Assembly (NCBI RefSeq): GCF_012027615.1
Contig: NZ_SNUT01000002.1
Location: 248,001 to 312,000 of the forward strand
Direction of reading: 5' to 3'
DNA from: Thermococcus sp. 21S7
Lineage (GTDB): Archaea; Methanobacteriota_B; Thermococci; Thermococcales; Thermococcaceae
DNA: 64,000 bases
The position numbers and the translations under genes are program-made. Below the pieces are notes generated by a model. That model made no database searches. It was not told where the DNA came from and saw only the letters and a list, made by a program, of their open reading frames with translations. Positions 33,475-43,730 of the stretch are shown piece by piece; the stretch's first letter is position 1; every line of letters begins with the position of its first letter.

Positions 33475-33936
33475 GTGAACCGTAGGGAATTCATTCTCTA
33501 TGCTCTTTCCATTATTTTTGCAACAGTTTGGGAGCTTGTACTCGCCTATAACGGTCGAGCTATCATTGAATATTATGTTGATTGGGTAGTTGTATCGGAG
33601 AGTCCTCCCATTTCTTGGAGCAAATACTCTCCTTCGCTGGAGTTTGTTCTTCTCGTTTTACTCCCTGCGCTTGTCCTATTCGGCTTGTACCTTTGGTTCA
33701 GGGAGTCTGCCCTAAAGAAGTCAGCACTCTCAATAAGCTTGCCTATTCTGTCAGTGATTATTGCGTGTTTTAAAACTACGGGACCGGGTGTTTTATTGGT
33801 TCTGATTGTTGTCTCGGCTGTGGTTGGTGGGGTAGTTGGGAAAGACAAGTGGGAAAAAGCAATACTTGGCATTGCAGGCTTCCTATCAGGGTTTATGGTG
33901 GCGATGATAATAATGGGCGGACTCTCCGCCCGGTGA
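33475..33936 (+). CDS. Small membrane protein, island family member 1
   Basis: 153 residues with about four hydrophobic segments: an N-terminal one containing TVWELVLAYN near 16, a short outside loop with SWSKYSPSLEFVLLVLLPAL near 45, a membrane segment ending in a short KKSALS stretch, then two more segments ending GFLSGFMVAMIIMGG. No known family recognised. It starts at GTG 33475 five bases after the peptidase stop, with GAGGAGGTGAG as ribosome site, so it is in the peptidase operon. Tandem duplicate of the next gene. Confidence 0.72.
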   Translation: MNRREFILYALSIIFATVWELVLAYNGRAIIEYYVDWVVVSESPPISWSKYSPSLEFVLLVLLPALVLFGLYLWFRESALKKSALSISLPILSVIIACFKTTGPGVLLVLIVVSAVVGGVVGKDKWEKAILGIAGFLSGFMVAMIIMGGLSAR

Positions 33937-33956
33937 TGTTGAGTGGGGGTGTTTTT

Positions 33957-34448
33957 ATGAATCGTAGGGAATTCATTCTACATGTTCTTTCTATTATTTT
34001 TGCAACAGTTTGGGAGCTTGTACTTGCCTATAATAGTCGGGCCATCAGTGAGTATTATGTTGAGAAAGGCACAATTTTTTTTGAGAACTGGACGGGTGGG
34101 ACAGGGGGACCCTGTGTTTCTTGGAGCAAATACTCCCCCTCCTTGGAGTTTGTTCTTTTAGTCCTTCTCCCTACACTCGTCCTTCTCATCTTATACCTCT
34201 GGTTTAAGGAGCCCACCCTAAAGAAATCAGCACTTTCAATAGGGTTGCCTGTTTTGTCAGTGATTGTTATCTATTTTAAAACTACAGGACCGGGTGTTTT
34301 ATTGGCTCTGATTGTAGTGTCGGCTGTGGTCGGTGGGGTAGTTGGGAAAGACAAGTGGGAAAAAGTGCTACTCAGTATTGCGGGCTTTCTACCAGGCCTT
34401 ATAATAGGAATGATAATAGCGGCTGAACTCACAGCTGTATGGTGTTAA
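33957..34448 (+). CDS. Small membrane protein, island family member 2
   Basis: 163 residues, nearly identical in layout to the preceding gene: MNRREFILHVLSIIFATVWE, then a longer outside loop (FENWTGGTGGPCVSWSK) with one Cys, then SPSLEFVLLVLLPTLVLLI and two more hydrophobic segments. The start ATG 33957 follows GGGGGTG; a longer frame upstream overlaps the previous gene and is not used. The outside loop is the most variable part between the copies, which might reflect partner binding. Confidence 0.72.
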   Translation: MNRREFILHVLSIIFATVWELVLAYNSRAISEYYVEKGTIFFENWTGGTGGPCVSWSKYSPSLEFVLLVLLPTLVLLILYLWFKEPTLKKSALSIGLPVLSVIVIYFKTTGPGVLLALIVVSAVVGGVVGKDKWEKVLLSIAGFLPGLIIGMIIAAELTAVWC

Positions 34449-34466
34449 TAAGTGGTGAGTGAACCC

Positions 34467-34937
34467 ATGAAGCTCCGCTCGCTCCTCTATCTTTTCCTCT
34501 TCCCTGCATGGGAGTTCCTGCTCATGATTTTACTCCCTTCGGAATACTACGTTGGGGCTTCTTGCCTTCAGACTCATCCCTATCCAATCTGCGGCTTTCA
34601 CTTTAGCCCATCGGCAACTTTTGTCCTCCTCGTGACGGCACCGTTCTTAATCTCAATTATCCTTGGCCTCTGGAAGGAATGGAGTGAACTCGTAGCATTT
34701 GGGATCCCTTCGCTCGCTGTTGTCTTGGTAACGCTTCTTCTCCTGTACCTCTTCGAAAAGTCATGGATTTCTTTTTTCGTGCCTGTAATAGTCTCGGTGG
34801 TTCTGTATAGCCTCCCATGTATAAGACTGGACGGCCCTATAAAAAGAGCGGAAAGGCTGGTATGGATAGCCACGTCACTCATAGTCTCGTTTATCCTCTG
34901 CATTATGGTGTGGAGTGGCATATCAATAATGGTATGA
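34467..34937 (+). CDS. Small membrane protein, island family member 3 (divergent)
   Basis: 156 residues. It shares the layout of the previous two: PAWEFLLMILLPSEYY near 14, then FHFSPSATFVLLVTAPFLIS near 45 and two later hydrophobic segments, but few identical residues otherwise. The outside loop has two Cys (SCLQTHPYPICGF). ATG 34467 follows GGTGAG; the GTG at 34452 is part of the leader. It may belong to the same operon as the peptidase. Confidence 0.68.
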   Translation: MKLRSLLYLFLFPAWEFLLMILLPSEYYVGASCLQTHPYPICGFHFSPSATFVLLVTAPFLISIILGLWKEWSELVAFGIPSLAVVLVTLLLLYLFEKSWISFFVPVIVSVVLYSLPCIRLDGPIKRAERLVWIATSLIVSFILCIMVWSGISIMV

Positions 34938-34987
34938 AAAATTTTATAACAAAGGATGTCGTATTTACTGCAGATGGAGGGGGCTTA

Positions 34988-35719
34988 ATGAGGAAATCCC
35001 ACATTGTCTTCCTGTTGTTGGTTGTCACATTGGCATTGATTGCCGCGAAAGTCTCTCAACATCCAGAAAAAAGTCAGTGTTTCTCGACGGTGCCGGTGAA
35101 CGTCAGCGATGTTAAGCCACCAATCGTCAGCGGGCCGGGCTTTCCTCCCCAAGCAGGATTCCAGGGTATAACACTCGACGAGGTTGTAAACGGAAGTCCG
35201 AGGCACGTGCTCGTCGGGTTTTTTGGCTTTGAAAACGTGTCATGGTCCCTTGAAAAGCCATCCTGCTATTTTAAATCCCTGGAAGGCGTTTCCGAGAACT
35301 GGACTGGTATCGTCCTACCGGGGGCCTTTCTCTCAAACGTAACCCTCTCGGAAAGAGTTTATCTGGCCGTTTATGTGTATCCTTTGGAGGGAACAGCAAT
35401 AGTATCTGAGGTGGACTACGGAGAAACGCCAGAGAAGTCAAAGATAACCGAAGCATTTCGGCTCAAGTACACGGAGCATCCCAACGAGATTGTGGAAGCC
35501 TACGTCTCTAAGCTTGAGCACTCGGGCTATACTGCAATCAGGGAGCTTTCCGGCGGTCTTTTCAAGGGTTGGGTGCTCAGGAAGGGAAATAATTACCTGC
35601 TCGTGCTTAAGGTTAGGGACAAGGGCAACCTGTACCTGCTCCTTGCCAGTGGTAATGAGAGGGACATCAAAAAACTCACCGACGTCCTTCCTTTGAGTGG
35701 GAGTGGTGAGTCTCAGTGA
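34988..35719 (+). CDS. Secreted protein, unknown
   Basis: 243 residues. A signal peptide or anchor (IVFLLLVVTLALIAAKVS, residues 6-23) is followed by an outside domain with alternating beta strands, two Cys in the first 100 residues and several Asn-X-Ser/Thr sites. No family recognised. ATG 34988 follows GGAGGGGG. A TATA-like TTTTATAAC lies about 45 bases upstream, so it may start a second transcript. Its stop overlaps the start of the next gene by four bases (GTGA). Confidence 0.68.
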   Translation: MRKSHIVFLLLVVTLALIAAKVSQHPEKSQCFSTVPVNVSDVKPPIVSGPGFPPQAGFQGITLDEVVNGSPRHVLVGFFGFENVSWSLEKPSCYFKSLEGVSENWTGIVLPGAFLSNVTLSERVYLAVYVYPLEGTAIVSEVDYGETPEKSKITEAFRLKYTEHPNEIVEAYVSKLEHSGYTAIRELSGGLFKGWVLRKGNNYLLVLKVRDKGNLYLLLASGNERDIKKLTDVLPLSGSGESQ

Positions 35720-36183
35720 GATTTCCAAAACATTTTCCCCACTTTCTCACTCTCACCTCGGCAACGGCATGGGAGCTCCTTCTCCTCTACAACATGACTT
35801 GGCTAAGGAGCTACTACATCGAAAGCGGGAGGGTTTACGTTCGGGACGGAATTCCCGCCTGCTGGTTCAGGTATTCGCCCTCTCTCCCCTTCGTCCTCCT
35901 CGTTCTCCTTCCGGCGATTGTTCTCCCTGCCCTTTACGTTCGCTTCAAAGAACCCCTCCTGAGGAAATCGGGCCTCGCTATTGGATTACCCGTCCTGTCA
36001 GTGGTTCTCGTCTCCCTCCGAAATCCCAAGGGTTCCTTCTCGGTCCTGCTCGCCATTTCGGTCGGCGTTGGTGTCATACTGGGAGAGGGCAGAGAAGAAA
36101 AGGCATTGCTCTTCCTCGAAGGCTTTTTGCCGGGATTTATCGTGTTTATGATAATACTCGGCGGGCTCGCGGTCAGTTGCTGA
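35716..36183 (+). CDS. Small membrane protein, island family member 4
   Basis: 155 residues, same family as 33475-34448: SATAWELLLLYN near 14, CWFRYSPSLPFVLLVLLPAI near 49, a KEPLLRKSGLAIGLPVLSVV segment near 78, and GFLPGFIVFMIILGGLA near the end. It begins at GTG 35716 inside the stop region of the previous gene. The conserved YSPSLxFVLLVLLP and LPVLSVV phrases define the family. Base composition is closer to the host average than in the tandem pair. Confidence 0.72.
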   Translation: MRFPKHFPHFLTLTSATAWELLLLYNMTWLRSYYIESGRVYVRDGIPACWFRYSPSLPFVLLVLLPAIVLPALYVRFKEPLLRKSGLAIGLPVLSVVLVSLRNPKGSFSVLLAISVGVGVILGEGREEKALLFLEGFLPGFIVFMIILGGLAVSC

Positions 36184-36281
36184 TGGAAGAGAGGGGATTT
36201 TAAAAATGCTGGAATGAGAACGGGCTATATGTAGTGGCTCGCATGGGACTCGCGGTTAGCCTGTAAGAAAAGGGGAAAGAC

Positions 36282-37187
36282 TCAATCCTCCCCGAAAATC
36301 CTGTCCACGAACCACTTCTCGTCGAACGGCTTTAAATCGTCGTAGCCCTGGCCGACGCCAACGAAGAGTATCGGCGCGCCGATGGCGTGGCTTATGCTCA
36401 GAGCGGCACCGCCCCTCGCATCTGCGTCCAGCTTGGTGAGGATTACGCCGTCGATCTTCACCGCCTCGTTGAACTGCTTCGCCTGCTCGACGACGGAGTT
36501 GCCGGCTAAACTGTCGCCAACGAATATCACCAGGTCAGGCTTGGTTACGCGCGCTATCTTCTTCATCTCGTCCATAAGGTTTCTGTTCAGCTCGTTCCTT
36601 CCTGCGGTGTCTATGAGGACGACGTCCAGTCCCCTGGCCTTTGCGTGCTGGATCGCGTCGTAGGCGACGGCGGCGGGGTCGGCACCGTAGGAGTGCTTGA
36701 TGACCTTAACCCCGACGCGCTTTGCGTGCTCCTCGACCTGCTCTATCGCCCCTGCACGGAAGGTATCGCTGGCGGCTATGACAACGCTTAAACCGTTCTT
36801 CTTGAGCCAGTGGGCGAGCTTGGCTATAGTCGTTGTTTTCCCGGAGCCGTTGAAGCCCACAAAGGCTATAACGAAGGGCTTCTCCTCCTTAGACCTTATC
36901 AGCTCAAGAAGGTCTATCTTTTTCTCCGGTGTCAGGACCTCAAGAACGGCCTCCCTAACGGCCTTCTCGACCAGAGCTTTCTTGTTGGTGCCTATCTTTA
37001 CTTTCTGACCGACGAGCTTTTTCTTTATCCTCTCTCTGAGCTCCTCGACGGTTTCGAGGGCAACGTCCGCCTCAAGAAGCTCTATCTCCAGGTCCCAGAG
37101 TGCATTTTCCACGTCCTTCTCGCTTATTTCAGTCTGCGAGACCCTGTCCACGAATGAGCTTAACTTCTCCTTGAGTTTTCCCAGCAT
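36282..37187 (-). CDS. ftsY: Signal recognition particle receptor FtsY
   Basis: 301 residues, a short archaeal FtsY made of N and G domains only. P-loop [17 protein letters not shown] near 108, [12 protein letters not shown] near 138, DTAGR near 195 and the TKLD box near 252. The N domain (residues 1-95) has no long acidic extension. The receptor docks SRP-ribosome complexes at the membrane through paired GTPase domains. ATG 37187 is chosen because GGGGTGG precedes it; GTG 37196 belongs to that site. TATA AATTATATAGG lies at about 37216-37226. Confidence 0.96.
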
Positions 37188-37238
37188 CTTTACCACCCCA
37201 TGAGCGAGCGACTTATGCCTATATAATTATTATGAAGT

Positions 37239-37326: not shown

Positions 37327-37776
37327 TCAGTACCTCCTGACGTAGGTCCTGCTCTCCACCACCTTCCCGTTCTCAAGGCGCATGACGTCCAGTCTTTCAA
37401 AGCCGACGGTTTCCCTCTTGTACGCGATTAGATAATCGATGGATTCCCGTATCCCATAGCGGGTTATGGAGTCCTTCACGTACTTGTGCTCGTAGAGCAG
37501 AACGAGCTTGTCCCTGTGCTCCCCCAGCCACTCCGTCAGCTTTTCCCTCTCCGCCCTGGAGCGTGAGAGCGGGTTGACTATGAGGTACACGTCGAAGTCG
37601 TCGCTCTCGAAGGGGGAGCCTATGTAGACGTCACCGTCGACCTGGAACGGCAGATACTCAGCAAGTATGCGCCTCCCTGCCTTCCCCCATGCGTTCAGGT
37701 ATATTCTCGCAAGTCTCTTCCCGTCTCCTGTAATTAAAACCGCTCCCGAATTTAATTCGGCTATTTTCTTCAGCAT
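37327..37776 (-). CDS. Conserved-looking protein, unknown
   Basis: 149 residues, soluble, mixed alpha/beta. It has an N-terminal GAVLITGDGKRLARIYLN stretch, then GDVYIGSPFESDDFDVYLIV near 47 and a basic helical half rich in Lys and Arg (KYVKDSITRYGIRESIDYLI). No family recognised. ATG 37776 is preferred; ATG 37782 lies two codons further out. It ends directly at the TATA box of the guide RNA. Confidence 0.7.
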   Translation of the reverse strand: MLKKIAELNSGAVLITGDGKRLARIYLNAWGKAGRRILAEYLPFQVDGDVYIGSPFESDDFDVYLIVNPLSRSRAEREKLTEWLGEHRDKLVLLYEHKYVKDSITRYGIRESIDYLIAYKRETVGFERLDVMRLENGKVVESRTYVRRY

Positions 37777-37899
37777 GGTCATCACAAAAAACTTTTACTC
37801 TGAGGTTAAAATTCTTTCTCAAATTTTCGGCTTCCTGAGGACCATAAAGTATATATTGCGCTTTACGGGTATACCTTTGAAAACTCGCGGGGTGTTAGC

Positions 37900-39186
37900 A
37901 TGAAGAAGCTGTTTAGCTTGTTTTTAATTGGCATCTTGGCTCTCGGTGTAGTGGCCAGCGGCTGCATAAGCGGCGGGGAAGAAAAAACCGGAATAAACAT
38001 CCTCTACACGTACACCGGTTCATTCGGTGACCCTGCTAAAGGGAAGCAGGCGGCACAGGCTCAGCTCCAGCAGGGCGCTTGGGTCATCTACCAGGTCGCG
38101 GGTGGCACTGGTCTTGGTGTCTTCGAGGCCGTGGGGGACTACTTGGACGCCAACGACAAGAAGATGGGACCTCCGTTCGCGATAGGTGTTGACTCCGCCC
38201 AGGACTGGATTAAACCGGGTGTTATAATAGCGAGCATGATGAAACGTGTTGACGTTGGTGTTTACAATGCCGTCAAGCAGGCGGAGGAGAACCAGTTCCA
38301 GGGCGGCGTCGTTGAGCTCGGCCTCAAGGAGGGCGGTGTCAAGCTCTCAACCATAGAAGACGTCAAGGCCATGTTTGACTCCCTTCCTGCGGACGTCAAG
38401 GAGAAGAAGCTCAAGGATCTCGGCTTTGAGAGTGAGGACGAGCTTATACAGTTCCTTGAACAGACCAGGAACCAGGTTCCGGACTGGATTTGGGATGCCG
38501 TTGACGACCTTCAGAACCAGATAATCAACGGACAGATAATCGTTCCAAAAGCCACGTCTAAGGACCAGATTGAACTTCTCAGAAAGGCCGACGAGTGGAA
38601 GACCATGGAGGACTATGCCAAGAACTGGAGTGCGAACGAACCCAAGCCCGAAACGTACTTCAATGAGAGCCTCAACAGTAGACAGAACACGAAGAAGATA
38701 GCCATCGTCTACGACGTCGGCGGCAGGGGCGACCTGAGCTTCAACGACATGGCTTATTTGGGTGCCGAGAAGGCCGCCAAGGAGTTCGGCCTCCAGCTCG
38801 ATGAGCTCCAGAGCAACAGCGAGAACGACTACCTTCCGAACCTCAGGAGCCTTGCCAAGAGCGGTGAGTACGACATCATCATTGCGGTCGGCTTTATGAT
38901 GACCAACGCCGTCAAGCAGGTCGCCACGGAGTACCCGAACCAGAGGTTCGTTATCATCGATGGCTACGACCCGGAGATGCCGCACAACGTCCAGATGGTT
39001 CTCTTCAAGGAGAACGAGGGTTCAACCCTTGCTGGTGCCCTCGCGGCGCTCATAGCGCTCAACGACAACAAGGACACCATCGGCATCGTCCTCGGTATGG
39101 AGATTCCGGTTCTCTACAAGTTCGAAGGTGGCTACCGCTTCGGCGCCTACTGGGCCCTCGACTACTACAAGAACCACAAGCAGTGA
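37900..39186 (+). CDS. BMP/PnrA-family nucleoside-binding lipoprotein, circularly permuted
   Basis: 428 residues: signal peptide, lipobox VVASGC with Cys22, then the binding protein. In known members (TmpC, PnrA/Med) the order is xVxDxGGxxDxSFN first, then GMExPxxxxFExGF, then the SFxDPxKGK half with AGGTGxGV and SMxKRxD. Here the second half comes first: YTYTGSFGDPAKGK at 36-49, VAGGTGLGV near 68, GVDSAQDWIKPG near 100 and MMKRVDVGVY near 117. The first half follows: KIAIVYDVGGRGDLSFND at 266-283, then GMEIPVLYKFEGGYRFGAYW at the end, stopping at NHKQ. The new ends lie at the hinge between the two lobes. It heads a nucleoside-type ABC transporter operon. Confidence 0.88.
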   Translation: MKKLFSLFLIGILALGVVASGCISGGEEKTGINILYTYTGSFGDPAKGKQAAQAQLQQGAWVIYQVAGGTGLGVFEAVGDYLDANDKKMGPPFAIGVDSAQDWIKPGVIIASMMKRVDVGVYNAVKQAEENQFQGGVVELGLKEGGVKLSTIEDVKAMFDSLPADVKEKKLKDLGFESEDELIQFLEQTRNQVPDWIWDAVDDLQNQIINGQIIVPKATSKDQIELLRKADEWKTMEDYAKNWSANEPKPETYFNESLNSRQNTKKIAIVYDVGGRGDLSFNDMAYLGAEKAAKEFGLQLDELQSNSENDYLPNLRSLAKSGEYDIIIAVGFMMTNAVKQVATEYPNQRFVIIDGYDPEMPHNVQMVLFKENEGSTLAGALAALIALNDNKDTIGIVLGMEIPVLYKFEGGYRFGAYWALDYYKNHKQ

Positions 39187-39232: not shown

Positions 39233-40768
39233 ATGGAAGAGCAAACCCCAGTGCTTGAGATGCGGGAGATTGTCAAGGTTTACCCAGACGGGACAAGGGC
39301 CCTCAAGGGGGTTACCCTTAAGGTCTACGAGGGCGAAATCCTCGGCCTCCTTGGTGAGAATGGTGCAGGAAAAACGACGCTGATGAAGGTTCTCTTCGGA
39401 ATGCTGAAGCCAACAAAGGGCAAAATCTTTCTTCGTGGCAATGAGGTCCGCTTCAAGAGCCCCGCAGATGCCATAGCAAACGGAATCGGAATGGTCCACC
39501 AGCACTTCACGCTCGTCGAGGTCTTCAACGCCCTTGAGAACATAATCCTCGGCATGGAGGGCCATGAGCTTCTGTCCAAGATTGACGTCGAGAACGCGAG
39601 GAAAAAACTCCAGAGGCTCATGGACGAGCTGAACTTCCAGGTTCCGCTTGACGTCCCCGTGGAGAACCTGCCGGTTGGTGTGCAGCAGAGGATAGAAATC
39701 CTCAAGATGCTCTACCGCGACGTTGACATACTCATCCTTGACGAGCCCACTGCGGTTTTAACCCCAATCGAGGTCAAGGAACTCTTTGCGGTTCTCAGGA
39801 AGCTCAGGGAGCAGGGGAAGACGATAATCTTCATCAGCCACAAGCTCAACGAGGTCATGGAGCTCACCGACCGCGTCACCGTCATCAGGAAAGGTGAGGT
39901 CGTTGGAACCGTTAAGACGAGCGAGGCAACGCCCCAGCTCCTCGCGAGGATGATGGTTGGAAGGGACGTCGTTTTGAGGATTGAGAAGCCCCCGAAGGAG
40001 CCCGGCGAGGTTATCTTCCGCGTTGAGGATCTGTGGGTGAAGGGAGACAGGGGAGAGGATGCCGTCAGGGGGCTTACCTTCGAGGTTAGGGCTGGTGAGA
40101 TATTTGGAATAGCCGGTGTCGAGGGCAACGGTCAGAGCGAGCTCATAGAGGCTATAACCGGCCTCAGAAAGGTCGAGAGGGGCAAAGTTTACCTTAAAGG
40201 GGCGGACATCACCGGCAAAAAACCGAGAGAACTCTACGACATGGGAATGGCACACGTCCCGGAGGATAGGACTCACATGGGCTTAATCCTTGAGATGAGC
40301 GTGATGGAGAACTCGATACTCGGAATGCACTGGCGGAAGGAGTTCTCGAAGGGTTTTCTGCTCGACTGGGACAAGGTTGAGGCGCACGCTAAGAGGCTGA
40401 TTGAGGAGTTCGAGGTCAGCGCGCCTGGAACCAAGGCTCCCGTGAAGAGCCTGAGCGGTGGAAACCAGCAGAAGCTGATCGTTGCGAGGGAGGTCAGCAA
40501 GAAGCCGGAGTTCATCATAGCGGCCCAGCCGACGCGCGGTGTTGACGTTGCATCGACCGAGTACATCAGGAACTACCTCGTTAAGCTCAGGAACGAGAAC
40601 AAGGCCGTTCTGCTCGTTTCTGCCGACTTGGACGAGGTTCTCCAGCTCAGTGACAGGATGGCGATAATGTACGAAGGTCAGTTCATGGGAATAGTCAAGC
40701 CCGACGAGGTTACCGAGGAGCAGATAGGACTCATGATGGGAGGTGTTAAGGGTGAACCTCAAAAATGA
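39233..40768 (+). CDS. Nucleoside-type ABC transporter, double ATPase (YufO-like)
   Basis: 511 residues, two ABC domains. First half: GENGAGKTT near 41 and LILDEPTAVLT near 169, with a degenerate signature LPVGVQQR. Second half: a non-standard Walker A, GVEGNGQSE near 300, intact LSGGNQQK near 405 and AAQPTRGVD in the Walker B region near 427. Such an asymmetric pair is normal for this family and for sugar ATPases of RbsA type. It energises the two permeases that follow. ATG 39233 follows GGAGGTGGAAGG. A gap of 46 bases with T-rich stretches separates it from the binding-protein gene. Confidence 0.92.
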   Translation: MEEQTPVLEMREIVKVYPDGTRALKGVTLKVYEGEILGLLGENGAGKTTLMKVLFGMLKPTKGKIFLRGNEVRFKSPADAIANGIGMVHQHFTLVEVFNALENIILGMEGHELLSKIDVENARKKLQRLMDELNFQVPLDVPVENLPVGVQQRIEILKMLYRDVDILILDEPTAVLTPIEVKELFAVLRKLREQGKTIIFISHKLNEVMELTDRVTVIRKGEVVGTVKTSEATPQLLARMMVGRDVVLRIEKPPKEPGEVIFRVEDLWVKGDRGEDAVRGLTFEVRAGEIFGIAGVEGNGQSELIEAITGLRKVERGKVYLKGADITGKKPRELYDMGMAHVPEDRTHMGLILEMSVMENSILGMHWRKEFSKGFLLDWDKVEAHAKRLIEEFEVSAPGTKAPVKSLSGGNQQKLIVAREVSKKPEFIIAAQPTRGVDVASTEYIRNYLVKLRNENKAVLLVSADLDEVLQLSDRMAIMYEGQFMGIVKPDEVTEEQIGLMMGGVKGEPQK

Positions 40769-41798
40769 GCTCAGGGGTTACGTTAAACCCGTAGCGGAGA
40801 GCGTTCTTGCGATACTCATTGGGGCCTTCATCGGGGCCCTCGTCCTCTGGTTCAGCGGTTACAGCCCCGGCTCAGCCTACTACTGGCTCATCAAGGGCTC
40901 CCTCGGCTCAACCGATGGTATAGCCGAAACCCTCAGCAAATCGGCCCCGCTTATCCTAACGGCGATAACCTTCGCGATAGGCGCGAGGACGGGTCTCTTC
41001 AACATCGGTGCCGAGGGAACGGTTTACTTCGGCGCGATAGCGGCGATAATCGTCACTCAGTACCTCCAGAATCCCCTGGCGGGCATCCTCGCGGGCCTCT
41101 TCATCGGAGCCCTCTGGGCCCTTCCAGCGGCAGTCCTCAAGGTTTACAGAGGGGTGCACGAGGTCATCTCCACAATCATGTTCAACTGGATTGCCTTTTT
41201 CCTCGTCAGCTGGCTCGCGGTCAGCGTCTACTACAACCCTAAGGACCCCAACAGCACCCTGCCGATTCCGCCCGGCGCGAGGTTGCCCCTTCTCGTGAAG
41301 GGAACCAGCCTGTCCTGGGCGTTCATCATAGCCATCCTCTCGGCGGTGGTCGTTTTCGTGGTGATGTGGCACACCAAGCTCGGATACGAGCTGAGAACCA
41401 GCGGTCAGAACCCGCGGGCGGCAGAGTACGGGGGAATAAATCCCAAGCGCTCGGCCATCTGGTCCTTTGTCATCGGTGGAATGACGGCCGGTCTGGCCGG
41501 AGCGGGAATCGTCATGGGAACCCCACCGAGCTACGCCATAACCCAGGGATTGGCCAACGTCTACGGCTACGGCTTTGACGGAATAGGAGTCTCGCTCGTT
41601 GGCAGGAATCACCCGCTCGGCATAATCTTCTCGGGAATCCTCTTCGGAGCGCTGAGCGCTGGAGCAACGGCAATGCAGCAGCACGCCCACGTTCCGCTTG
41701 AGATGATTAAGGTCATCGAGGGAATAATCATCATAGCCGTCGCCGTTCCGGGACTGCTCGACCTCTTCGCCAGGCTCTTCAGGAGGGGTGAGGCATGA
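40752..41798 (+). CDS. Nucleoside-type ABC transporter permease 1 (YufP-like)
   Basis: 348 residues, about eight to nine membrane segments. Family segments are FNIGAEGTVYFGAIA near 89, GVHEVISTIMFNWIAFF near 134 and GQNPRAAEYGGINPK near 217, the coupling helix that contacts the ATPase. GTG 40752 lies 17 bases inside the ATPase gene, with GGAGGTG as ribosome site. It carries a longer N-terminal segment than permease 2. Confidence 0.9.
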   Translation: MNLKNELRGYVKPVAESVLAILIGAFIGALVLWFSGYSPGSAYYWLIKGSLGSTDGIAETLSKSAPLILTAITFAIGARTGLFNIGAEGTVYFGAIAAIIVTQYLQNPLAGILAGLFIGALWALPAAVLKVYRGVHEVISTIMFNWIAFFLVSWLAVSVYYNPKDPNSTLPIPPGARLPLLVKGTSLSWAFIIAILSAVVVFVVMWHTKLGYELRTSGQNPRAAEYGGINPKRSAIWSFVIGGMTAGLAGAGIVMGTPPSYAITQGLANVYGYGFDGIGVSLVGRNHPLGIIFSGILFGALSAGATAMQQHAHVPLEMIKVIEGIIIIAVAVPGLLDLFARLFRRGEA

Positions 41799-42706
41799 AT
41801 GAGGCGATGGTGATCAGCCTTCTCCTCGGTTCACTCGCGGCGATGGTTCCAATAGCGCTCACGAGCATAGGTGCGGTGATAAGCGAGAGAGCCGGTGTCG
41901 TCAACATCGGCTACGAGGGAATACTGATGTTCTCGGCGTTCTTCGGGGCAATGTTCGCGGAGCTTGCCGGAAACGGCTGGGTTGGCATCCTCGGCGGAGC
42001 TTTTATAGGCCTGCTCTTCGGCGTCCTTCACGGCATCCTGACGGTGTACCTCAAGGGCGACCACGTTATTCCGGGCATAGGCCTCAACCTCCTCGGCTAC
42101 GGTGCGGTGGCCTTCGGAATCAGGGCCTACTGGGGAACCGCCGGTCAGCACCAGGTTCCGAGCAACGCCCAGATTAGCCCGCTGTGGATGGACGCCTTTG
42201 GAAACTCGCTCAGTCCAATGGTGCCCATAACGATAGCCGTCGCGATAATAGCCTGGTGGGTGCTGTTCAAGACCCCCTTCGGACTGAGGATAAGGGCCGT
42301 CGGTGAGAACCCTGAGGCGGCCGATGCGCTCGGAATCAACGTCGAGCTCTACCGCTTCACGGCGGTCTTGATAGCGAGCGCCTTGGCAGGAGTCGCTGGG
42401 GCCTACCTAAGCGTCGACTGGCTCGGAACCGTTACCAAGCAGATTGCCGCCGGAAGGGGCTTCATAGCACTGGCCAACATGGTCTTCAGCGGCTGGAACC
42501 CAATAATAGCCCTGGGAGGAGCGTTTCTCTTCGGATTCTTCGACAACTTCGCCATCTACATCCAGAACAACCCCTGGCTCGCGGGAACGATACCCTGGCA
42601 GTTCATAGCGACCCTTCCGTACGTCGTGACCCTGATAGTGGTCGCGGGCATCATCGGCAAGGCAAGGCCACCGAAGTGGGACGGAAGGCCCTACAAGAGG
42701 GAGTGA
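41795..42706 (+). CDS. Nucleoside-type ABC transporter permease 2 (YufQ-like)
   Basis: 303 residues, about eight to nine membrane segments. ERAGVVNIGYEGILMFSAFF near 29, GDHVIPGIGLNLLGYG near 88 and GENPEAADALGINVELYR near 169 match the partner permease of this family. Its ATG overlaps the previous stop (ATGA). With the permuted lipoprotein and the ATPase it forms a complete importer. The cargo is probably a purine nucleoside or a related compound, by family. Confidence 0.9.
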   Translation: MNEAMVISLLLGSLAAMVPIALTSIGAVISERAGVVNIGYEGILMFSAFFGAMFAELAGNGWVGILGGAFIGLLFGVLHGILTVYLKGDHVIPGIGLNLLGYGAVAFGIRAYWGTAGQHQVPSNAQISPLWMDAFGNSLSPMVPITIAVAIIAWWVLFKTPFGLRIRAVGENPEAADALGINVELYRFTAVLIASALAGVAGAYLSVDWLGTVTKQIAAGRGFIALANMVFSGWNPIIALGGAFLFGFFDNFAIYIQNNPWLAGTIPWQFIATLPYVVTLIVVAGIIGKARPPKWDGRPYKRE

Positions 42707-42749: not shown

Positions 42750-43730
42750 TCACTTCTTGAGAACGACGCCCAACGCCGTTCCCAGAACGAGTCCAACCAT
42801 GAGGGAGACCGCAACGTACCGGCTCACGTCGGTCTTCGCCGCCGGCCCCTCCGCGGACGCATTCCCCCCAAGGGCCCGGATTACCGCGGCGCTGTTCTCG
42901 ATGAGGATTTTGGTGTACGGCTCGTCCTTCCAGAAGACCCTTATCTCCGCGGATGGCTTTCCGCTCTTGGCGGACAGCTCCTCCGCCGCGTCCTTGAGCT
43001 GGTCGGGGCTGTCCACGGCGTAGACCACTACATCCGCCTTGGTTGCGGTGGGGACGAGATCATCCACGCCTATGGCGGGCATCTCTTCCTCCGGCTTTAT
43101 CGAGGCGATTGCCTTGATTCCAAGCCATTCAATGGCGTACTGGTCGGGGGGCATCTGAATCACCGCGGTGCGGTTTTCATCAACGAGGGCGCGGTACGCC
43201 TCCATTATCGTCCTTACCCTCACCTCGAAATCCCGGTATTCCGCCCGGTACACCTCGGCGTTGACCGGGTCCGCGCCCTCAAGGGCTTTTTCGGCGGCCC
43301 GTGCGATCGCCAGCGCGTTTGTGGGGTCGAGCCAGACCCCGTGGGGGTTGTCCTTGCCGTTGTACCAGTGTTCCGGGAGGTACCTGAAGCCCTCGCGCTT
43401 GTAGTCTTCGAGAAAGAGCGTCTCGCCCGTTACCGTGCCTTCATCCTTAAGTTCGGATATTCTCTTCTCCACTGGGAGATGACCGCCGGTGGTTACTATC
43501 ACGTCGGCTTTCCCCAGGAGTTCAATCTGGCTTGCCGTGAGCTGATACTCGTGTGGGTCAGCGCCCGGCGGGATTAGGTAGACGACGTCCACCGAATCGC
43601 CGAATGCATCCTGGATTATTGCCGCCAGGGGGTTTATGCTGGTCACAACTAGGGGTTTCTCACTCGCCGCGCCCACAAAAGGTGCAACCATACCCGCGAT
43701 GAGCATTACGATTAACAGCAGCCTCTTCAT
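42750..43730 (-). CDS. Metal-binding ABC solute-binding protein with C-terminal anchor
   Basis: 326 residues. A signal peptide (LLLIVMLIAGMVAPFVGA, residues 4-21) is followed by a TroA/ZnuA-like domain: PPGADPHEYQLTASQIELL near 53-71, TTGGHLPVEKRI near 80, NPHGVWLDPTNA near 127 and a second lobe from about 180. Metal ligands are probably His58, His83 or His130, and a Glu/Asp in the second lobe. Unlike usual binding proteins it ends in a membrane segment (YVAVSLMVGLVLGTALGVVL) and a short basic tail. No metal permease or ATPase is adjacent. Confidence 0.85.
   Translation of the reverse strand: MKRLLLIVMLIAGMVAPFVGAASEKPLVVTSINPLAAIIQDAFGDSVDVVYLIPPGADPHEYQLTASQIELLGKADVIVTTGGHLPVEKRISELKDEGTVTGETLFLEDYKREGFRYLPEHWYNGKDNPHGVWLDPTNALAIARAAEKALEGADPVNAEVYRAEYRDFEVRVRTIMEAYRALVDENRTAVIQMPPDQYAIEWLGIKAIASIKPEEEMPAIGVDDLVPTATKADVVVYAVDSPDQLKDAAEELSAKSGKPSAEIRVFWKDEPYTKILIENSAAVIRALGGNASAEGPAAKTDVSRYVAVSLMVGLVLGTALGVVLKK

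Follow-up and report, generated by a model that had tools for sequence, protein, structure and literature searches.

A circularly permuted nucleoside-binding lipoprotein in Thermococcus and the apparent exchange of its operon at a shared locus

The gene at positions 37900–39186 (+ strand) of a 64,000-nucleotide stretch of Thermococcus sp. 21S7 DNA (hereafter the window, to which coordinates refer unless stated otherwise) very probably encodes an ortholog of NupD, a membrane-anchored, predicted nucleoside binder for the importer NupABC, in which a PnrA-type fold is circularly permuted and which belongs to a single clade apparently spread by recombination at a shared locus. A permuted nucleoside receptor is not new in kind, one species having already been published (PMC12628685, in its accessible text). 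The apparent repeated replacement of one operon form by the other at this locus has, as far as we found, no report in the literature, and is the part worth following.

A BMP/PnrA lipoprotein with its halves reversed

The gene is a single intact open reading frame of 428 amino acids with one stop, and its product carries the lipobox VASGC, the Cys of which is residue 22; the first-pass annotation had these coordinates, the complete frame, the single stop and the signal peptide right. PF02608 (Bmp/PnrA) was the sole Pfam family found in NupD (E 8e-51), matching in two stretches of swapped order: the Pfam search aligned residues 268–416 to profile positions 4–149, and a genome-wide profile search aligned an earlier part of the gene to positions 156–282. 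The score of 173 bits, against a curated cut-off of 24.1, places NupD in the family, and the family order of N-half followed by C-half is reversed in it. On these matches we file NupD as a homolog of PF02608 and a circularly permuted variant, not an ordinary member. A phmmer search against solved structures aligned residues 30–215 to the C-terminal half and residues 263–418 to the N-terminal half of 4pev (Aeropyrum), and the same half-by-half swapped alignment was obtained with 2fqw (PnrA), 6y9u (PnrA) and 6shu (BmpD). The swap of halves in a BMP/PnrA lipoprotein, as first proposed, is thus borne out by both Pfam and PDB matches, each half fitting the opposite half of the solved relatives in the alignment to TmpC/PnrA.

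The order of parts along the + strand can be read as follows. A TATA-like element of the nupD promoter is predicted at 37850–37857, and its flanking stretch is near-identical in a normal-order relative. The signal peptide and lipobox Cys22 (37900–37965) are followed by a short tether (residues 23–31; 37966–37992) that differs in sequence and length between species. The first mature part (residues 32–217; 37993–38550) corresponds to the C-terminal part of ordinary BMP/PnrA proteins (Pfam Bmp positions 156–282 and PDB alignments). Next come the old C-terminal tail, with the pattern KDQIE..LR.A..W..ME..AK.W found at the end of ordinary homologs, and a new linker joining the old C-terminus to the old N-terminus (together 38551–38691). 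The second part (residues 265–428 and the stop; 38692–39186) corresponds to the ordinary N-terminal part (Pfam Bmp positions 4–149 and PDB alignments) and ends in the new C-terminus YYKNHKQ.

Downstream lie the ATPase and permease genes that the first-pass annotation had pointed to, which we identify as nupABC: nupA (39233–40768, +), an ABC transporter ATPase of 511 amino acids from the ATG at 39233 that belongs to the permuted-type clade (ortholog TK0658); nupB (40743–41798, +), a permease whose start codon may be later (ortholog TK0659); and nupC (41795–42706, +), a second permease (ortholog TK0660). The combination of a lipoprotein signal with a cognate ABC ATPase and two permeases is that of the BMP/PnrA family, and it recurs in every locus long enough to show the operon. 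Conserved flanks enclose it, with ftsY (SRP54-type GTPase; 36282–37196, −) and a gene for a 152-amino-acid protein of unknown function that has no Pfam match (37327–37785, −) upstream, and a znuA-like zinc-binding protein gene (42750–43730, −) downstream. The locus order ftsY-DUF-nupDABC-znuA is common to permuted and ordinary operons. The window also contains, at 33475–36203, a row of several short, similar membrane-like open reading frames (MNRREFILxxLSIIFATVWELVLAYN...) forming a variable multigene family; the one member tested had no Pfam match, and their number and order vary among relatives.

Our homolog search covered 94 genomes of the family (61 of the Thermococcus genus and 33 others), with the permuted order checked frame by frame in matching genomes. 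It was found in 22 of the 61 genus genomes, five of them single-contig; 20 other species gave full-length permuted-order matches (1–428) at 78–96% identity, extending to close relatives the order first noted in the window, and one more match ends at a contig end. No permuted order was seen in the 33 other genomes, and the remaining readable genomes of the genus and its sister genera have the ordinary order, their halves being separated by just a few residues. Elsewhere in the phylum there was no permuted match among the matches listed, and a scan of genome contigs returned matches only from Thermococcales. The window genome is a 48-contig draft, which might suggest that assembly or annotation had swapped the halves of an ordinary gene; this reading is virtually eliminated by the independent genomes, as the same order occurs in 21 others (finished single-contig ones included), the T. 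kodakarensis gene sits at published base positions, and the junction residues are conserved. Since so many genomes share it, neither chance nor misassembly explains the order, and the window protein is, judged from its sequence, a real and functional-looking circular permutation.

Junctions, origin and position of the new ends

Comparison with ordinary genes shows what happened at each junction. In close genera the ordinary genes terminate in KDQIEAIRNAQTWQEMEELAKQWESS, a tail that permuted proteins keep; a stretch of some 21 new residues (in the window, SANEPKPETYFNESLNSRQNT) then leads directly into KKIAIVYDVGG. The ordinary YYKKKTGKDVNI-LYTYTG is split, giving the C-terminal YYKNHKQ and the N-terminal TGINILYTYTG of the permuted form. 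These junctions fit the route suggested by the first-pass annotation, a tandem duplication followed by loss of the outer halves. Its expected traces were not seen: two adjacent copies occurred in none of 81 loci (0/81), and inspection of the linker by eye revealed no remnant of a signal peptide or lipobox. We consider it plausible from the junctions that the permutation arose by tandem duplication and trimming of the outer halves.

The missing intermediate would also suit a gene assembled by recombination from halves of different BMP paralogs, and a tandem pair of close paralogs would give the same picture. Such a chimera is nevertheless improbable, given that the two halves are about equally distant from normal Thermococcus genes (72% and 69% identity, compared with 49% and 36% to the outgroup type), the pattern that a single gene should give, that the C-half tree gives one permuted clade with support of 96, and that the N-half is compatible with one permuted clade (AU p 0.55). 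Permutation of one gene remains our preferred reading.

The first-pass annotation placed the new ends at the hinge between the lobes, and our mapping overturns this claim. The BmpD chain passes from one lobe to the other at 115/116, 242/243 and 269/270 (PMC7093131). By alignment, the cut in NupD maps between chain positions 199 and 203 of 6shu, or approximately BmpD residues 163–167, with a numbering offset of 36 (from Phe176, the stacking residue, taken as the Phe of the GSF motif) that is good to a few residues; this is well inside the C-lobe. A confident AlphaFold2 prediction for a normal-order homolog (pLDDT 85), whose closest folds were 4pev and PnrA, likewise puts the cut in a loop between helix 175–199 and strand 206–211. 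In Type I binding proteins, such helix-to-strand loops face away from the cleft. Both the BmpD lobe borders and the ordinary-homolog model thus reject ends at the hinge, since the cut falls inside the C-lobe in a loop away from the cleft.

Our AlphaFold2 model of the permuted protein itself (from a six-sequence alignment) had a pLDDT of 54, was unreliable and was not used for a fold search, so the fold assignment rests on sequence and on the AlphaFold3 model of the T. kodakarensis ortholog TK0657, which lies 0.73 A from PnrA (PMC12628685, accessible text). From this map, the NupD chain would begin with the C-lobe strand that in ordinary proteins comes after the second helix of that lobe, pass through the old C-terminus and tail, the linker and the old N-terminus, and end after the same C-lobe helix. 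Both lobes and the cleft would be retained, the lipid anchor would sit on the outer face of the C-lobe instead of on the N-lobe, and the chain would cross between lobes four times versus three in the ordinary form.

A single clade of operons and its apparent repeated replacement of the ordinary form

With the halves put back in order, the receptor tree recovered the permuted proteins as one group requiring one change, at a support of 92 (below 95); the N-half alone does not resolve this clade. The transporter genes are clearer, with NupA, NupB and NupC of the permuted operons forming one clade (support 100), whose sister group is made up of the normal operons from five genera. NupB identity was 70–98% between permuted operons and 55–65% between permuted and normal operons, without overlap, and the flanking gene ftsY shows no permuted/normal identity split.

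The genomes tell a different story from the operons. On the flanking-gene tree the permuted order needs 8 changes and a single permuted clade is rejected (AU p 8e-6); on an independent tree of rpoB/rpoA1/rpoA2, built from 60 genomes, 10 changes are required, every one of them imposed by well-supported branches (AU p 3e-7), these numbers being parsimony counts that include possible reversals. The minimum of 10 switches on the RNA polymerase tree suggests that the permuted operon was repeatedly exchanged in place. Eight species that form a single clade all have the permuted order, consistent with vertical descent, and the other permuted genomes are scattered beside normal-order sisters (the window genome/G031, G033/G019, G020/G072, G024 near G028, and G016/G040).

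The edges of the exchanged segments are visible in the DNA. From 37880 to 37967, across promoter and signal peptide, 87 of 88 bases are identical between the window and the normal-order genome G031; collinear similarity ends directly after the lipobox Cys codon, identity across the operon is about 75%, and it returns to 88–89% past the end of nupC. The left seam in the window, just 3' of the Cys codon, thus appears to keep the promoter and signal peptide of the resident type, and the right seam lies near the end of nupC. The same seam after the lipobox separates G033 from G019. When G016 is compared with its relatives the left seam lies further upstream, and its promoter and signal peptide resemble those of the window; this difference between the seams favours separate events. 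DNA mosaics were found in five pairs, with flanks 79–93% identical to a normal-order genome and operons only about 72–75% identical to it, the same operons being 80–89% alike to those of permuted genomes with dissimilar flanks. The simplest reading is that homologous recombination within the conserved ends replaced the operon that was resident there.

These mosaics also bear on whether permuted and normal operons are instead old paralogs, two copies that the Thermococcus ancestor already had and that were lost in different lineages, not transferred. The position of the permuted operon clade as sister to all normal operons would agree with old paralogy, as would a draft bin (G053) that holds both operons. 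We consider it unlikely: in five cases the flanks resemble a normal-order relative and the operon resembles that of a permuted genome whose own flanks are dissimilar, the seam within the signal peptide is a mark of recombination, and both types occupy the same locus, so that the ancestor would have needed two copies at one place.

We lean instead, with some reserve, towards the two receptor topologies being alleles of one locus. Permuted nupD and its own permeases would have arisen once, and would keep replacing, and possibly be replaced by, the ordinary operon, with seams that keep the receptor with matching, co-adapted permeases. Duplication and trimming would account for the origin of the permuted form, and homologous recombination at the shared locus for its spread. 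The NupABC tree contained no operon mixing a permuted receptor with ordinary-type permeases, which suggests that the receptor and its permeases may function as a matched unit. With one seam in the signal peptide and the other at the nupC end, the receptor would stay with its permeases, and the permuted topology may be maintained together with a co-adapted transporter.

The two nup operons of bin G053, one permuted and one normal, lie on different contigs (loci L054 on C17 and L065 on C27); the bin is 53% complete, may be mixed, and could represent two strains or both operons in one cell. Another genome of the genus (L120; G068:C20) carries a divergent, outgroup-type nup operon of genus g3 that is neither of the Thermococcus types.

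Published NupD, other binding proteins and predicted function

Our literature search for TK0657 returned one paper only, of October 2025, which, in its accessible text, describes TK0657 as NupD of T. kodakarensis, attributes to it a "flipped domain arrangement" and reports a phenotype in growth on nucleosides (PMC12628685). Deletion of nupD stops growth of the evolved strain ALE22 on guanosine, inosine or cytidine; the wild-type T. kodakarensis strain did not grow on nucleosides, and the phenotype was observed in cells that had a mutant NupD together with elevated RuBisCO (same source). The gene is carried by G024, where it starts at 559513, and the second base of codon 39 (ACG; 559628) and the first base of codon 117 (AAG; 559861) coincide exactly with the published mutation positions; the window equivalents of these codons are Thr37 and Lys115. 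TK0657 and the window NupD are 84% identical over the full permuted length and share operon, locus and cut points, so that the window gene shows both features of the NupD type, a full-length permuted match and the operon at the same locus. The accessible text of the TK0657 paper concerns one species and is silent on how the permuted form is distributed, how it arose, where the cut lies and whether operons are exchanged.

PnrA/TmpC of T. pallidum (2FQW), PnrA of S. pneumoniae (6Y9U), BmpD of Borrelia (6SHU) and the Aeropyrum protein 4PEV share PF02608 and the lobes with NupD but, unlike it, have the ordinary order with termini at the old positions. Our search of the open-access literature yielded no further nucleoside-binding protein that is naturally permuted. 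A close parallel is TpMglB-2 (Tp0684) of T. pallidum, reported in 2016 as a natural permutation of a Type I binding lipoprotein and termed 'Type Ic / Cluster Bc' (PMC4990184). Both are naturally permuted Type I lipoproteins with a fourth lobe crossing (in NupD a predicted one), whereas TpMglB-2 belongs to the glucose-binding MglB family, is cut in the N-lobe and has a poorly conserved permuted part (PMC4990184), and NupD belongs to a nucleoside family, is cut in the C-lobe and retains 69–72% identity between orders. We do not assign NupD to Type Ic / Cluster Bc, in which the first N-lobe strands have moved to the C-terminus and the ligand is a sugar, as its cut lies in the C-lobe. Halves are also naturally reordered among betaine/choline binding proteins (OpuAC and ChoX versus ProX), which have a Type II fold and other ligands.

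Natural permutations are usually seen only once both forms have drifted far apart. The permuted and ordinary nup forms are still this similar, occupy the same place in sister species and appear to have been exchanged repeatedly, and T. kodakarensis has a genetic system; the effect of moving the lipid anchor and chain ends should therefore be directly testable. The pair would also allow testing whether the permuted receptor is tied to its own permeases.

By the same binding mechanism as its relatives, NupD in the window species would hand nucleosides to the NupABC importer. That it might be a sensor or storage protein without a transport role could be suggested by the window genome itself, where a normal-order PnrA domain forms the outer part of a putative receptor kinase. 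We find this hardly credible for the permuted protein, considering the ATPase and two permeases that accompany it, the failure of T. kodakarensis ALE22 to grow on nucleosides once nupD is deleted (PMC12628685, accessible text) and the lack of mixing with normal-type permeases; a role in import is what we favour.

The kinase gene lies in the window genome outside the window (L064:6340-9468; G000:C1:58339-61467) and encodes 1042 amino acids in which a normal-order PnrA domain is joined to a transmembrane segment, to DUF7662 and to a Ser/Thr protein kinase domain; the product is a putative archaeal receptor kinase that would sense nucleosides. Adjoining it, L064:1294-5100 encodes a 1268-amino-acid fusion of an SBP_bac_5 solute-binding domain to a protein kinase, and L064:5097-5843 is a PP2C-type phosphatase gene, which with the neighbouring kinases may form a signalling cluster.
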